Notes: generated from the letters alone by a model not told the origin. A DNA stretch of 64,000 bases from Solirubrobacteraceae bacterium (GCA_031177685.1 JAPSGI010000003.1:62001-126000); one strand, 5' to 3'. Positions 36,101 through 42,618 are shown, counted from the stretch's first letter. Made by a program: numbers and translations.

Positions 36101-38338
36101 ATGGCCGTGGGCAACGGGCGGTGCGGGGTCCTCACGCTGGCGGGCTGCGTGCTCGCCGCCCTGGTCGCCGCCGCGCCGGTGGCGGCGCAGTCGCCGATCG
36201 GCGTCCCCAAGCTCGGCAACCCGGTCTGCCTGAATCCGGCCGAGCCGACGCCGGAGATCTACGGGCCCACGGACGTCGGGGCCACCACGGGCAACCAGCG
36301 CCTGTCGGTCGGGATCAACCCGCAGGGGACGGTCAGCGTACTGCGCTGGCCGAGCCCGTCCTACTACGACCACGTCCGCTACCTCACGCTGGACCGCGAC
36401 CTGCCGCGGCTGGGGCTGGAGCCCAACGAGGGCGCGTTCAGCGGCCTGCGCCTGACGCTGGCGGACGGCCGCGAGGAGACCGTGTGGCTGCGCGACCTCG
36501 ACGTGCGCCAGCGCTACGCCTCCGAGGACTCGGACACGATCGCCACGCGGCTGCGCTCCCGGCGCCACCGCTTCGTGGTGGAGATCGACGACGTGGTCCC
36601 GCCGGACGGCGACGTGCTCCTGCGCCGCCACGTCCTGCGGCCCGAGCGCGGCTCGCCGGTCCGCGTGGCGCGCCTGCTCGCCTTCGCCAACCTGCAGCCG
36701 GTCGCGTCGCGGCATCCGCTCGTGCCCACGCAGGACTGGTGCGACGAGGTGCGGGGCGCGGACCGGGCGCGCTACGACCCGGCGCACGACGCGATCGTGT
36801 GGTCGGTGTCCGAGGTCGACCAGGCCGTCGGCGAGCCGCGCTCCGCCGCGCTGGCCATGGGCCTGAGCCGCGCCAGCGACGGCCACCACGTCGGCGCGGA
36901 CCGCTACACGGGTCATCCCTCCGCGCGCGACGGCCCGCCGAGCGCGTACGACGACGCGGCCGACGGCGCGCTCTCCGGCGGAGACGAGCTCGGGCCGGCG
37001 GAGGTCGACTCGGCGCTGTCCGCGCCGCTCGGTCGCGCCCCGGTGAACGTGGTCTTCGCCGCCGCCGCCACGCCGGAGGCGGCGGGGCGGCTGCTCGAGC
37101 GCTGGCGCCGCCGCGAGGCGCGCCGCGCGGCGGCGGCCAAGCGCGCCGACCACCTGCGCTGGCTGCGCCGCGCGCCGCTCCCGCGCCGGGCGCCGCCCAC
37201 CGTGCGCCGGCTGGCCAAGCGCGCCCTGATCTCGCTGCGCCAGGCGATCGACGAGCGCGCCGGCCGCCGCGGCGACCTGGTGGCGATCGTGGCCTCGCTG
37301 GCCACCCAGAGCCCGTACGCGCAGGACTGGATCCGCGACGGCGCGTTCTTCAACGAGGCGCTCGACGAGATCGGCCAGCCGCAGCTCGTCGCCCGCCACA
37401 ACCTGTTCTACGCCGAGGTGCAGCACAAGCTGGAGGAGGGCGCGCCGCCCGGCTCGCCGGCCAGCGCGTGCGGCGAGCCGACGCCCGACGGCAACTGGTT
37501 CATGACGAACTGGGCCGACGGGCCCGACGCGGGACTCTTCACCTGGGAGATCGACGAGACGGCGCTGGGACTGTGGACGCTGTGGCGTCACTTCGAGCGC
37601 ACGCGCGACCGCGCCTACCTGGAGCGCGTCTACCCGGCGCTGCGGCGCAGCGCGGAGTTCCTCGTGGCGTTCCGCGATCCCGCCACCGGCCTGCCGCCCG
37701 GCACCGCGTGCGAGGACGACAACCCTCCGGCTCCGGGGCAGCCCACGTTCCACAGCTCGGGCCCGGCGCTGCTGGCCATGCGCGCGGCGGGCGCCGCCGC
37801 CCGTGCGCTCGGTCGGGGAGGCGAAGCCGCGCGCTGGGAGGCCCGCGCCGCCGAGCTCGACCGCGCGGTGGACGAGCGCCACCGCGCCGAGGGCGGCGCC
37901 TGGACCGCGGACTACGGCGACGGCGGCTGGGCCCTGTGGCCGGTCCGCCCGCGCCCGTACGACCACCCGCGCTCGCGCGCGCAGGCCGAGCTGGCGTGGC
38001 GCGCGGTGTCGCCGTCGTTCGCGGCGCCGCGCGGCCCGCGCCGCCGCGGACAGTACGAGGCCAAGGCCCTGCACGGGCTGGCGCACTACCACCGCGCCGT
38101 CGATCCCGCCGGCATGGCGCGCGTCAAGCGCGGGCTGAAGTGGATCGCGGGCGCCCAGGCCAACTACCAGGGTGGCACGGGCATCCTGGGCGAGGCTTGG
38201 TACGTGCGCGACGGGCGCATCTTCTCCGTCGTCTCCCAGCCCCACGTGTGGGCGCAGGTCCTGTTCTACCTGGCGGCCGTCGAGGCCTACGGTCGCGCCC
38301 CGTACCGCACCGGCCGGCCCGAGCGGCTGGCCGAATAA
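36101..38338 (+). CDS. Exported GH15-like glycosidase
   Basis: A 745-residue exported protein with signal peptide VLTLAGCVLAALVAAAPVAA. Residues about 55-340 form a beta-sandwich like that before the barrel of glucodextranase or glucoamylase. The C-terminal half is an (alpha/alpha)6 barrel with QDWIRDGAFFNEALDEIG, FTWEIDETALGLWTLWRHFE (likely acid) and KALHGLAHYHRA. It probably cleaves an alpha-glucan or related polysaccharide outside the cell. Catalytic residues cannot be fixed with certainty. It precedes the lipid kinase and MFS-GT2-PAP2 fusion genes in the same direction. Confidence 0.75.
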   Translation: MAVGNGRCGVLTLAGCVLAALVAAAPVAAQSPIGVPKLGNPVCLNPAEPTPEIYGPTDVGATTGNQRLSVGINPQGTVSVLRWPSPSYYDHVRYLTLDRDLPRLGLEPNEGAFSGLRLTLADGREETVWLRDLDVRQRYASEDSDTIATRLRSRRHRFVVEIDDVVPPDGDVLLRRHVLRPERGSPVRVARLLAFANLQPVASRHPLVPTQDWCDEVRGADRARYDPAHDAIVWSVSEVDQAVGEPRSAALAMGLSRASDGHHVGADRYTGHPSARDGPPSAYDDAADGALSGGDELGPAEVDSALSAPLGRAPVNVVFAAAATPEAAGRLLERWRRREARRAAAAKRADHLRWLRRAPLPRRAPPTVRRLAKRALISLRQAIDERAGRRGDLVAIVASLATQSPYAQDWIRDGAFFNEALDEIGQPQLVARHNLFYAEVQHKLEEGAPPGSPASACGEPTPDGNWFMTNWADGPDAGLFTWEIDETALGLWTLWRHFERTRDRAYLERVYPALRRSAEFLVAFRDPATGLPPGTACEDDNPPAPGQPTFHSSGPALLAMRAAGAAARALGRGGEAARWEARAAELDRAVDERHRAEGGAWTADYGDGGWALWPVRPRPYDHPRSRAQAELAWRAVSPSFAAPRGPRRRGQYEAKALHGLAHYHRAVDPAGMARVKRGLKWIAGAQANYQGGTGILGEAWYVRDGRIFSVVSQPHVWAQVLFYLAAVEAYGRAPYRTGRPERLAE

Positions 38339-38454: not shown

Positions 38455-39375
38455 GTGACGATCGTAGGGTCAGAACGGGTGGTAGCGGAGGCGCCGTGGC
38501 AGGACGCGCGGCTGCGCCCGCTCGCCGTGGTCAACGCCAACGCCAGCGGCGACGCTCGCGCCGCGGTGCTGCTGGAGGCGCTGCGCGCTGCCGCGCCGGA
38601 CGTCGAGGTCGTCGCCACGGCCGACCCCGGGGCGCTCGCCGGCACGCTCGCCGAGGCGGGTGGCCGGCGCACGATCCTCGTCGGCGGGGACGGAACGCTG
38701 CACGCGGCGGTCAACGCGGGCGTCGCGCTGCCCGAGCTGGCGCTGCTGCCGGCGGGGCGCGCGAACAACGTCGCGCGGGCGCTGGGCGTGCCGAGCGATC
38801 CCGGCGCCGCCGCGCGGCTCGCGCTGGCCGCCCCGGCGCGCCCGCTCGACGTCCTGCGCGCGCGGACGGCCGCCGGGCGCGTGCTGCGCTGCGTGGAGGG
38901 GGTGAGCGCGGGCTTCCAGGCCCAGGCGCGCGCGGGCTACGCGGGCGTCAACTCCGGCGACCTGGCCGCCGGGGCCCGGGCGCTGGCGCGGGCGTTCGCG
39001 GGCTACCGGCCGGGCCGCGTCGAGATCGACGCGGACGGCGCCGTCGCGGTCGCCGGCGAGGTCGCCCAGGTCTTCTTCTCCAACCTTCCGTTCTTCGGCT
39101 TCGGCTTCCGCGTGGACCCGATCGCCCATCCGCGCGACGGGCGCTTCGAGGTCGTCGTCGCCCGCGCGCGCTCGCGGCGCGAGCTCGCCGGGCTGCTCGT
39201 CGCCGCCCGCCGCGGCAGCCACCTCGACCGGCCGGGGGTCACGGTGCGGCGCGCGCGGCACGCCGTCCTGCGCGGAGAGCTCGCCCTCGCCGGCGACGCC
39301 GAGCCGCTGGGGAGCGGCGACGTCGAGGTCTCCCTCGAGCCGGGCGCGGTGCGCGTCGCCGCGCCGGCGGGGTGA
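38455..39375 (+). CDS. Diacylglycerol kinase-family lipid kinase
   Basis: A 306-residue member of the DAGK catalytic family (YegS/BmrU type), phosphorylating a lipid alcohol such as diacylglycerol, sphingoid base or polyprenol. ILVGGDGTLHAAVN at about residue 73 holds the nucleotide-binding GGDGT, and LLPAGRANNVARALGVP is a variant of the usual PxGTxNDFAR loop. The C-terminal beta domain spans about 125-300. The GTG start is chosen because it is nearest to the conserved N-terminus; the ribosome site is weak. Its stop overlaps the start of the fusion gene by 4 bp (GTGA). Confidence 0.8.
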   Translation: MTIVGSERVVAEAPWQDARLRPLAVVNANASGDARAAVLLEALRAAAPDVEVVATADPGALAGTLAEAGGRRTILVGGDGTLHAAVNAGVALPELALLPAGRANNVARALGVPSDPGAAARLALAAPARPLDVLRARTAAGRVLRCVEGVSAGFQAQARAGYAGVNSGDLAAGARALARAFAGYRPGRVEIDADGAVAVAGEVAQVFFSNLPFFGFGFRVDPIAHPRDGRFEVVVARARSRRELAGLLVAARRGSHLDRPGVTVRRARHAVLRGELALAGDAEPLGSGDVEVSLEPGAVRVAAPAG

Positions 39376-41975
39376 TCGCGGTGCGCCGCCGCGGACTCAC
39401 GTTCCTCGCCGCGTTCGGCCTCGCCGCCGCCGGGGTCGGCGCCGCGCGGGCCGTTACGACCACGTTCCTTCCCGTCCTGCTCGACCGCATCGCGCACGCG
39501 CCGGTCCTGATCGGCGCCGTGATGCTGGTCAACGCCGTCGCCGGCTTCGCGATCCCGCTCGCAGTCGGCGTCTGGAGCGACCGCGCCCGCCGGCGACTCC
39601 CGTTCCTCGCCGGCGGCGCGGCGCTCACGTGCGGCGGCCTCGTCGCCGTGGCGCTGTCCGCGCAGACGACCTACGTACTGCTCGCGCTCGCGGCCGTCGC
39701 GGTCTACGCCGGGCTCAACGCCGTCGCCACGGCGCACCGCGCGCTGATCCCGGACGGCTTCCAGGACGCCGCCCGCCCTTCCGCCACCAGCGCGCAGGAG
39801 GTCGCCATGCTGGCCGGCGCGATGGTCGGGATCGGGGCGGGGGGCGCCCTGCTGACCGTCGCGGACTGGATGCCCTTCGCGGCGGCCGGCGCCGCCATGC
39901 TCCTGACCGCGATCCCGACGCTCCTCGCGGTGGTGCGGCGCCGCGCGCGGTTCGCCGTGCGAGCGCCCGCGCACGACGCGAGCCGGCAGGCGGGACTGCG
40001 CGCGCTGGGCGACGTGCTGCGCGTCGCGGGCGCGCGGGAGGTCCTGCTGGCGCAGGTCCTGTGGGTCGCCGGGTACGTCGCGCTGCCCGCGTTCTTCATC
40101 CTCTACGCCGCATCGGTGCTGGGGCTGGGCACCGGAGTCGCCGCCGCCCTTCCGGCCGCCTTCGGTCTGCTCACCGGCGCGGGCATGGTGGTCGGGGGGC
40201 GCACGCCGCCCGAGCGGGTGCGCGCCCGCCTGATCGCCGGCGCCGCGCTCCTCGGCGGAGGGCTGGTCGCGGCGGCGCCGCTTTCCAGCGTGCAGGCCGT
40301 CGCCGCTCCGTTCGCGGCCGCGGCGGTGGGCGCGGGTCTGGTCACGGCGCTCGGCTTCCCGTACTTCGCCCGCTTCATCCCCGAGGGGCGCGCCGGGGAG
40401 TTCAGCGGGGCGTTCTTCGCGGCGCGCGCCGTCGCGGCCGTGGTCGCGCTGCCGCTGGCGGGCGTGCTGATCGAGGTGAGCGGCTCCTACCGGCCGCTGC
40501 TGCTGCAGGGCGGCCTCGCGCTGGTGGCGGTCGCGGTGCTCGCGCGGCCGCGCGAGCGCTCCGCGCGGGTGCGCGCGCCGCGCCCGCAGCTGCGCCGCGT
40601 GGCCGCGATCGTGCCCTGCTACGGGGTCGAGCGCCTCGAGGCCGTCGTCGCCGCGGCGCAGGCGCAGGTCGCCGAGGTGCTCCTGGTGGACGACGGCGCG
40701 CCCGCGGCGGCCGCGGCGCGCATCGAGGCCGTGGCGGCCCGTCCGGGCGTGCGCCTGCTGCGGCTGGAGCGCAACGGCGGCAAGGGCGGCGCGGTGGCCG
40801 CGGGCACGGCGCTGCTGCTGGCCGGGCCGCAGCCGCCGGACGCGATCGCGGTGCTCGACGCCGACGGCCAGCATCCGGCCGGCCGCCTGCCGGCGCTGCT
40901 GGGCGCGCTCGAGCGCGCCGACGTGGCGATCGGCGATCGCAGCGCCGACACCGCGGCGATGCCGCGCGAGCGGCGCTTCACCAACCGGGTGTCCAGCGGG
41001 CTGCTCTCGCTCGTCACGGGGCGCCGCGTGCGCGACTCGCAGTGCGGCATGCGCGCGTTCCGCCGCGAGGTGCTCGAGCGCTTCCCGCTGCCGCCGGGCC
41101 GCTACGAGGCCGAGTCGCGCCACCTGCGCGCGCTGCTGCGCGCGGATGTCGACGTCACCTGGGTTCCCATCCCGGCGATCTACGAGACCGGGAGCAGCGC
41201 GTTCCGCCCGGTGCGCGACTGCGCCCGTGTGCTCGTGGCGATCCTCGGGCCGAAAGCGCCGCCCGGCCTGCGTGCCCGCCTGCCCGCGAGCGCGTTCTGG
41301 CGCACGTGGAGTCGGCGGCTGGGCGGCCTGGTCGCGGGCATGATCGCGGCGGGCGCCGTGATGCCGCTGCTCGGGCCGATCGACGAGCGCGCGTTCCTGC
41401 GCCTCAACGCGCTCGGCGACGGGCCCGAGTGGCTCTACCACGCGCTGGACCCGCACACGCGCAACTACATCCTGCTGGTGGCGCTCGCGCTGGCGGCCGT
41501 GATCGTGATCCGCTCGGCGCCCCTGGGCGGCGCCATGCTCGCGCTGGGCGTCGCGGCGGGGTTCTCCGACCTACTGCTGCAGGGCGTCTACCTGGTGTAC
41601 GACCGTCCGCGGCCCGAGGAGGTGCTGCGCGAGAGCGTGATGCTCACGCACGACCGCACGTGGGCGCACATCGCCTCCTTCCCCAGCGGCCACTTGACGG
41701 TCACCACCGCGATCGTCGTCGCCGCCGTCGCGGTCGCGCCGGTGCTGCGCGCGCCGCTGTGGGGCTACGTCGCGGTGATCGCGCTCACGCGCATCACCTT
41801 CGGCGCGCACTTCCCCGCCGACGTCGCCGCCGGCCTGGTCTTCGGCTACGTGACCGGCGCGTTCGCGGTCGCCTTCACGCACGCGCTCGGGCTGCTGCCG
41901 CAACCCGCGCCGCCGGGACCGCTGCCCGCGTGGCGGCGGGCGCTCCAGGCGCGGCCGCGCTTCAGGCGGGCGTAG
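39372..41975 (+). CDS. MFS carrier - GT2 glycosyltransferase - PAP2 phosphatase fusion
   Basis: An 867-residue three-part protein. Residues about 1-400: MFS carrier with GVWSDRARRRLPFLAGG as loop motif A. About 408-630: GT2 domain of polyprenol-phosphate hexose transferase type, with VAAIVPCYG, LLVDDGAP, LERNGGKGG, VLDADGQHP (DxD-like) and DSQCGMRAFRREVL. About 645-867: PAP2 phosphatase with YDRPRPEE, FPSGHLTVT (about 769) and TRITFGAHFPADV (about 806-818). It should make, move and dephosphorylate lipid-linked sugar intermediates at the membrane. GTG start coupled to the lipid kinase gene. Such a three-domain order is not familiar to me. The end overlaps the convergent PAP2 gene by 14 bp. Confidence 0.85.
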   Translation: MIAVRRRGLTFLAAFGLAAAGVGAARAVTTTFLPVLLDRIAHAPVLIGAVMLVNAVAGFAIPLAVGVWSDRARRRLPFLAGGAALTCGGLVAVALSAQTTYVLLALAAVAVYAGLNAVATAHRALIPDGFQDAARPSATSAQEVAMLAGAMVGIGAGGALLTVADWMPFAAAGAAMLLTAIPTLLAVVRRRARFAVRAPAHDASRQAGLRALGDVLRVAGAREVLLAQVLWVAGYVALPAFFILYAASVLGLGTGVAAALPAAFGLLTGAGMVVGGRTPPERVRARLIAGAALLGGGLVAAAPLSSVQAVAAPFAAAAVGAGLVTALGFPYFARFIPEGRAGEFSGAFFAARAVAAVVALPLAGVLIEVSGSYRPLLLQGGLALVAVAVLARPRERSARVRAPRPQLRRVAAIVPCYGVERLEAVVAAAQAQVAEVLLVDDGAPAAAAARIEAVAARPGVRLLRLERNGGKGGAVAAGTALLLAGPQPPDAIAVLDADGQHPAGRLPALLGALERADVAIGDRSADTAAMPRERRFTNRVSSGLLSLVTGRRVRDSQCGMRAFRREVLERFPLPPGRYEAESRHLRALLRADVDVTWVPIPAIYETGSSAFRPVRDCARVLVAILGPKAPPGLRARLPASAFWRTWSRRLGGLVAGMIAAGAVMPLLGPIDERAFLRLNALGDGPEWLYHALDPHTRNYILLVALALAAVIVIRSAPLGGAMLALGVAAGFSDLLLQGVYLVYDRPRPEEVLRESVMLTHDRTWAHIASFPSGHLTVTTAIVVAAVAVAPVLRAPLWGYVAVIALTRITFGAHFPADVAAGLVFGYVTGAFAVAFTHALGLLPQPAPPGPLPAWRRALQARPRFRRA

Positions 41976-42618
41976 GCCGCGCGTGCGGCGCGAGCCGCGC
42001 GAGCGCGCAGGCGCCGAGCCACGACGCCGTCGCGAGCGCGCCGCCGGTCAGCCACCCGGCCATCACGTCGGTGGGGTAGTGCACCCCCAGGTGGACCCGC
42101 GTGAGTCCGACTGCCGCGACCACGAGCGCCGCGGCGCACAGGGCGCCGAGCCGCCAGCCGCCGCGCAGGTGGCGGACGGCCAGCCACGCCAGCACCACGA
42201 ACACGGCCGCCGTCGCGGCCGCGTGCCCGCTGGGGAAGGAGAAGCCCGCGGCCTGCGTCATCGCCTCGCCGGCCGGCGGGCGCGGGCGCTCGACCGTGTG
42301 CTTGAGGACGGTGACCAGCGCCTCGGTGACCGCGATCGACATCCCGAGTGCAGCGGCGCCGCGCCAGTGGCGCATGATCGCCAGGGTCGCCACGCCGGCC
42401 AGCGCGAGCGGGACGATGACGTCGGTGTTTCCGATCGCCGTGATCGCCAGGGCGAGCGGCGCCAGCGCCGGCTCGCGCATCTCGCGCAGCGCGCTGACGT
42501 CCAGGTGCGCCACGGCGGCGATCAGCAGGACGGCGCCCGCGAGCAGTGCGAGCAGGCCGAGGCTCGCGCCGAGTACGCGCAGCTCATGTCGATGTGCGTG
42601 CGTGAAGCCGTGAAACAT
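41962..42618 (-). CDS. PAP2-family membrane phosphatase
   Basis: A 218-residue polytopic phosphatase with the three PAP2 motifs: KHTVERPRP, FSFPSGHAAATAAV, and TRVHLGVHYPTDV. Likely substrates are undecaprenyl diphosphate, phosphatidate or a phosphatidylglycerol phosphate. It is a separate protein from the PAP2 domain of the fusion it faces. No ribosome site is seen; a hairpin stands directly before the ATG. Confidence 0.87.
   Translation of the reverse strand: MFHGFTHAHRHELRVLGASLGLLALLAGAVLLIAAVAHLDVSALREMREPALAPLALAITAIGNTDVIVPLALAGVATLAIMRHWRGAAALGMSIAVTEALVTVLKHTVERPRPPAGEAMTQAAGFSFPSGHAAATAAVFVVLAWLAVRHLRGGWRLGALCAAALVVAAVGLTRVHLGVHYPTDVMAGWLTGGALATASWLGACALARLAPHARPTPA

Follow-up and report, generated by a model that had tools for sequence, protein, structure and literature searches.

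A single-chain fusion of an MFS transporter, a GT2 glycosyltransferase and a PAP2 phosphatase, conserved in a narrow group of Thermoleophilia

The undecaprenyl phosphate (Und-P) translocases DedA and DUF368 are known to occur fused to PAP2 phosphatases, while elsewhere the genes are mostly separate (PMC9876793, PMC10127716). For mycobacterial Ppm1, some species join the polyprenyl-phosphate-mannose synthase and a membrane domain in one protein, while in others the two are operon partners (PMC3485146). Here we describe a gene from a 64,000-nucleotide stretch of DNA from a Solirubrobacteraceae bacterium (GCA_031177685.1 JAPSGI010000003.1:62001-126000; the whole stretch is called the window below) that encodes a major facilitator superfamily (MFS) transporter, a family 2 glycosyltransferase (GT2) and a PAP2 phosphatase in one chain, next to a gene for a lipid kinase of the diacylglycerol kinase (DAGK) family. 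Like DedA-PAP2 and DUF368-PAP2, the chain combines a polytopic, here putative, translocator with PAP2, and the MFS-PAP2 form described below also resembles those two fusions; the transporter of our chain, however, is of the MFS_1 type, the chain has no DedA (PF09335) or DUF368 (PF04018) domain, and a GT2 is included. The comparison concerns only how the parts might work. DedA and DUF368 are known translocases; lipid transport by the MFS part is putative. With GtrA/GtrB, ArnC and dolichyl-phosphate mannose synthase (DPMS) the fusion has in common a GT2 of the same type, with its catalytic motifs, and a partner membrane transporter, but where GtrA and ArnEF are small proteins the transporter here is an MFS protein, the GT2 lacks C-terminal transmembrane (TM) anchors of its own, and PAP2 is added. 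The fused-or-operon variation of Ppm1 is alike, but its membrane domain has six TM helices and is neither MFS nor PAP2. The LtaA pathway likewise has an MFS fold, with a lipid kinase and a glycosyltransferase in the same pathway; its glycosyltransferase is of a different type, however, its parts are not fused, PAP2 is not part of it, and we found no specific sequence kinship to it. A literature search for the MFS-GT2-PAP2 architecture returned nothing relevant: the component domain types are already known, while their combination was not found described in the literature searched.

The fusion gene and its parts, in positions of the window, are as follows.

39372..41975, plus strand: MFS-GT2-PAP2 fusion gene, GTG start, 867 residues (translation, Pfam, full-length homologues in genomes G571 and G546, AlphaFold2 (AF2) model with a mean predicted local distance difference test score (pLDDT) of 87.9)
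39372..40556, plus strand: MFS domain, residues 1-395, 12 TM helices (Pfam MFS_1, AF2 model of the domain alone, MFS fold matches)
40593..41249, plus strand: GT2 domain, residues about 408-626, GT-A fold, predicted to be cytosolic (Pfam Glycos_transf_2, nearest solved sequences, invariant catalytic positions)
41289..41891, plus strand: PAP2 domain, residues about 640-840, predicted to have six TM helices and its active site outside (Pfam PAP2, nearest solved sequences, positive-inside pattern)
41589..41591, plus strand: codon for Tyr740, at the position of the PAP2 C1 lysine (alignment A4)

From its GTG to its stop codon the frame translates into 867 residues with no internal stop, and Pfam finds MFS_1 at residues 17-359 (E 7.5e-26), Glycos_transf_2 at 413-570 (5.9e-17) and PAP2 at 723-837 (1.1e-14), all three above the curated cut-offs. 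An open frame alone is weak evidence for a fusion gene here, because the GC-rich DNA of this region gives long spurious frames, among them an antisense frame of 817 amino acids (39003-41456) that overlaps the fusion gene. The same in-frame chain is, however, encoded in full length in G571 (57% identity over residues 6-850) and in G546 (54% over residues 7-846), and in G776 its two pieces lie at the ends of two contigs (52% identity over residues 279-860, 57% over residues 8-182). Homologues in these three other assemblies rule out an assembly or frameshift artefact, and homology likewise rules out a chance open frame, despite the long antisense frames. The triple fusion is real and is conserved within a narrow group; three domains in this order in one stop-free frame is also what a first-pass annotation, made by a model from the DNA alone, had described.

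The GT2 part carries VDDG at residue 439, DADGQ at 496 and DSQCGMR at 555. In an alignment of 12 GT2 homologues the positions D45, D100xD102, QHP, D159xQ161xGMR and E..E..H are invariant; VDDG reads VGDA in G467 and VCDG in G514, with the invariant Asp retained in both. A profile of the GT2 family matched Pyrococcus furiosus DPMS (5mlz, 5e-18), ArnC (1e-16) and GtrB sll0501 (1e-9) in the PDB, and at E 0.001 it matched nothing there other than polyprenyl-phosphate glycosyltransferases. PF00535 scores above its cut-off, the model shows the alternating strands and helices of a GT-A fold, and Foldseek matches ArnC and DPMS. The profile matches and the invariant catalytic positions thus support the earlier assignment of this part to the polyprenyl-phosphate-sugar-synthase type. 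Against the NCBIfam equivalogs (ArnC, PpgS and the halo dolichyl-phosphate hexose transferase) the best score is 54.8 bits, compared with a cut-off of 375; judged by sequence, the GT2 is related to these named enzymes yet is none of them, and because its score lies far below every equivalog cut-off, its sugar cannot be named.

In the PAP2 part, whose nearest solved sequences are LpxE, YodM and PgpB, we find DRPRP at residue 744 (R747-P748), PSGH at 771 and R807-x5-H-x3-D, and in an alignment of 13 PAP2 family members RP, PSGH and R-x5-H-x3-D are invariant. The full signature K(X6)RP - PSGH - SR(X5)H(X3)D is nevertheless incomplete: Tyr740 stands in place of the C1 lysine, a position taken by Y, W, Q or A throughout the 13 members, and the Ser that starts C3 is Thr here, this Ser/Thr exchange being the sole other signature variation in the family. 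The domain still scores above the Pfam PAP2 cut-off. The claim that all three parts keep their diagnostic motifs therefore stands for the GT2 motifs and for most of PAP2 but not for the lysine position, and the loss of catalytic residues across homologues, named in the first-pass annotation as what would speak against the proposal, is absent from the GT2 (residues kept in 12 of 12) while it does affect the C1 lysine of PAP2. Such a uniform replacement could mean that this domain has little or no catalytic activity and instead anchors the chain in the membrane or binds lipid. We regard this as very improbable, given that the other signature residues are invariant apart from the start of C3 and that the K97A variant of Escherichia coli PgpB has 118% of wild-type activity on undecaprenyl pyrophosphate (C55-PP) and 298% on phosphatidylglycerol phosphate (PMC7413402). 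Because PgpB K97A stays active on C55-PP, loss of the C1 lysine is compatible with PAP2 activity.

Modelled alone, the MFS domain gives a pLDDT of 90.9, a predicted template modelling score (pTM) of 0.90 and 12 helices; the 12-TM MFS fold and Pfam MFS_1 are both found. Its fold neighbours, at Z 36-41, include G6PT, VMAT2, SotB, Spns2 and FLVCR, and they are too varied for a substrate to be named: Spns2, which like LtaA, LplT and MFSD2A is an MFS lipid flippase, is among the top folds but is tied with drug and metabolite carriers. LtaA is not among the 50 structures listed in this fold comparison, an absence that does not count against a relationship. Profile matches are to NorA, SLC45/SUC1 and, weakly, MFSD2A. 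With NorA and SLC45/SUC1 among the nearest sequences and such varied structural neighbours, the MFS part could be an ordinary small-solute or drug exporter, joined to the enzymes through co-expression or by chance, the parts having related but non-sequential functions; fusions with further enzymes do occur, as with PhoD in G649. We nonetheless consider this improbable, since these three partners have been fused independently and in two orders, and are linked to the kinase across several families, which exceeds what chance joining would be expected to produce.

The AF2 model of the full chain is confident within the domains. By the positions of arginine-rich segments, both ends of the MFS part, the GT2 and the C-terminus are assigned to the cytosol and the PAP2 motifs to the outside, and AF2 helices together with positive-inside charges predict six TM helices for the PAP2 part, with its active site outside. 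In the model, the GT2 and PAP2 active sites therefore lie on opposite faces of the membrane. This modifies the earlier idea of a substrate-channelling unit: direct channelling between GT2 and PAP2 would need an MFS step in between. Because six PAP2 helices put both PAP2 ends inside, both fusion orders found among relatives would keep the GT2 cytosolic, as we infer for the swapped order MFS-PAP2-GT2.

For comparison we searched 41 close relatives and the genomes of the phylum (396), class (399), order (232) and family (146). Close relatives of this MFS type were found solely within the class Thermoleophilia. The single chain MFS-GT2-PAP2 occurs in the window and in G571, G546 and G776, and a single chain of swapped order, MFS-PAP2-GT2, in G524 and G642. 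Most often in this family the fusion is MFS-PAP2, with a separate GT2 gene nearby in G649, G694, G514, G354 and G117 and none found nearby in G460 and G540. G467 encodes MFS and GT2 separately, in genes that share a 4-bp overlap, and has a lone PAP2 gene some 13 kb distant; G541 and G548 have the MFS alone. A scan of genome contigs with the single protein gave only two multi-domain loci, apparently G524 and G642 again, most other matches being to generic GT2 proteins; a plasmid search returned only a weak GT2 match. The recurrence of the parts as one gene set with interchangeable fusion supports a functional linkage of the parts, as had been proposed from the window alone.

The MFS-GT2-PAP2 proteins group together in the trees of all three domains, with moderate support (bootstrap 91-92 for most of these forks; the MFS tree leaves out G776, whose row was too short). 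G467 joins this group in the MFS and GT2 trees, and the G524/G642 pair groups with G694 in the GT2 tree. In approximately unbiased (AU) tests, with groups set by domain content and not by tree, a single clade of all triple fusions was rejected for MFS (p-AU 0.0014) and GT2 (0.0011) and was not rejected for PAP2 (p 0.30). A single origin is thus ruled out by two of the trees, the PAP2 tree not deciding, and because the MFS and GT2 trees reject one clade, two or more separate origins of the triple fusion, in different orders, are most likely. GT2 may have been inserted into an MFS-PAP2 ancestor, or PAP2 may have been joined to an MFS-GT2 pair. That these partners have been fused repeatedly speaks for a shared function.

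What that function might be can be put forward at two levels. We give about an even chance to the fusion being a single-chain unit that loads and moves a carrier lipid, most likely polyprenyl phosphate, for cell-envelope glycan assembly. On the outer side of the membrane, PAP2 would take a phosphate off polyprenyl pyrophosphate or some other lipid phosphate; the MFS part would move the carrier lipid, bringing polyprenyl phosphate into the cell or taking the loaded lipid out; and the GT2, in the cytosol, would transfer sugar from a nucleotide donor to polyprenyl phosphate. We favour a route in which polyprenyl phosphate made by PAP2 is moved in for reloading. Other proteins would then use the loaded lipid outside, for example the GT-C (PMT_2) enzymes that the genome encodes. 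Fusion would keep the partners together in equal amounts and anchor an otherwise soluble GT2. Substrate, flipping and flux are all inferred here. More specifically, the MFS part might be an unrecognised polyprenyl-phosphate(-sugar) translocase, in a chain that carries out outer dephosphorylation, translocation and inner sugar loading and that evolved at least twice in Thermoleophilia; this we advance as a tentative and rather unlikely proposal. Little is known as yet about flippases for polyprenyl phosphate, with or without its sugar load, and one MFS family repeatedly fused to PAP2 and a synthase is a concrete candidate; with three activities on one chain, the coupling of loading, flipping and dephosphorylation becomes directly testable in reconstituted membranes.

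Several points weigh against a carrier-lipid role. Besides the replaced C1 lysine, the MFS fold neighbours are mostly drug, phosphate-ester and metabolite transporters, with no specific link to polyprenyl carriers; the whole-chain pTM is only 0.67, so that the relative placement of the domains is uncertain; and the PAP2 domain type is present in 14 of the 399 class genomes (E 1e-30), a distribution so narrow and patchy that the unit must be accessory. Other routes of carrier recycling exist beside the unit, since the genome also encodes two BacA phosphatases and three DedA proteins: the BacA genes rule out PAP2 as the cell's only phosphatase for undecaprenyl pyrophosphate, and the DedA genes rule out the MFS part as its only possible Und-P translocase. 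A genome search for DUF368 gave no match. The cycle first proposed has to be corrected on one point: the suggestion that PAP2 regenerates the lipid after sugar transfer is not supported as worded, because Und-P is released directly on transfer in the ArnC-type pathway for 4-amino-4-deoxy-L-arabinose (PMC12826051) and by the same chemistry in the GtrB type (PMC11127046). Since transfer from a polyprenyl-phosphate sugar frees polyprenyl phosphate, PAP2 would be needed for undecaprenyl pyrophosphate or another lipid phosphate and not for the GT2's own cycle.

Two genes flank the fusion.

38479..39375, plus strand: YegS/Rv2252-like lipid kinase (DAGK), PF00781 and PF19279 above cut-off; the start could also be 38452
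41962..42618, minus strand: separate PAP2 phosphatase gene (Pfam PAP2 E 1.8e-21), tail-to-tail with the fusion and overlapping its 3' end by 14 bp

The kinase lies upstream of the fusion and, as already noted in the first-pass annotation, overlaps it by 4 bp (GTGA). Of the features of YegS/Rv2252/BmrU lipid kinases, both DAGK_cat and YegS_C are found in it, and TIGR00147 scores 67.1 bits against a cut-off of 118.65. A kinase of this type adjoins the MFS gene in nearly all relatives; in G546 it is downstream of the fusion instead and likewise overlaps it by 4 bp. Judging from the way diacylglycerol is recycled, its substrate is probably a lipid produced in the pathway that the fusion serves. 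As the most constant neighbour, the kinase lends itself to the main rival, an LtaA-like unit for diacylglycerol glycolipids, resembling the lipoteichoic-acid anchor pathway: PAP2 would make diacylglycerol from phosphatidic acid, the GT2 would glycosylate it, the MFS part would flip the product and the kinase would restore phosphatidic acid. PAP2 enzymes can act on phosphatidic acid, and glycolipid flipping by an MFS protein is known from LtaA (PMC8866510). The GT2, however, is closest to polyprenyl-phosphate synthases and not to known diacylglycerol glycosyltransferases, and the diacylglycerol set free by PAP2 would be outside, across the membrane from the GT2 and the kinase. Diacylglycerol glycosyltransferases belong mostly to GT4 and GT28. 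Mutation of PgpB K97 abolished activity on phosphatidic acid in one study, although another saw an increase (both reviewed in PMC7413402). We consider a glycolipid unit unlikely, though it is the strongest rival of the carrier-lipid role.

Several relatives show further peculiarities. In G649 (L071:1041-4502) a chain of 1153 residues, MFS-PAP2-PhoD-like, joins the transporter to two phosphatases and is closely followed by a GT2 gene. The MFS-PAP2 frame of G354 (L078:9602-12178) continues stop-free into a part that by eye looks peroxiredoxin-like, possibly through a missing stop or an assembly error. The MFS part is frame-shifted in G642 and G117 (L080:3028-3630, L079:8962-9161), by sequencing error or decay; G117 is a single-contig genome. 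The kinase-MFS pair is present twice in G694 (L075, L076), and its second copy probably runs into PAP2 on another contig.

Elsewhere in the window, positions 36101-38338 (plus strand) encode a 745-residue protein with a signal-like N-terminus and no Pfam match; its partial match to a model for oligosaccharide amylases scores far below the cut-off of that model. The separate PAP2 gene of the window (41962..42618), unlike the fused PAP2, retains the C1 lysine. Its homologue in G571 (47.5%) adjoins the DAGK gene, and in G546 another PAP2 gene borders the kinase.

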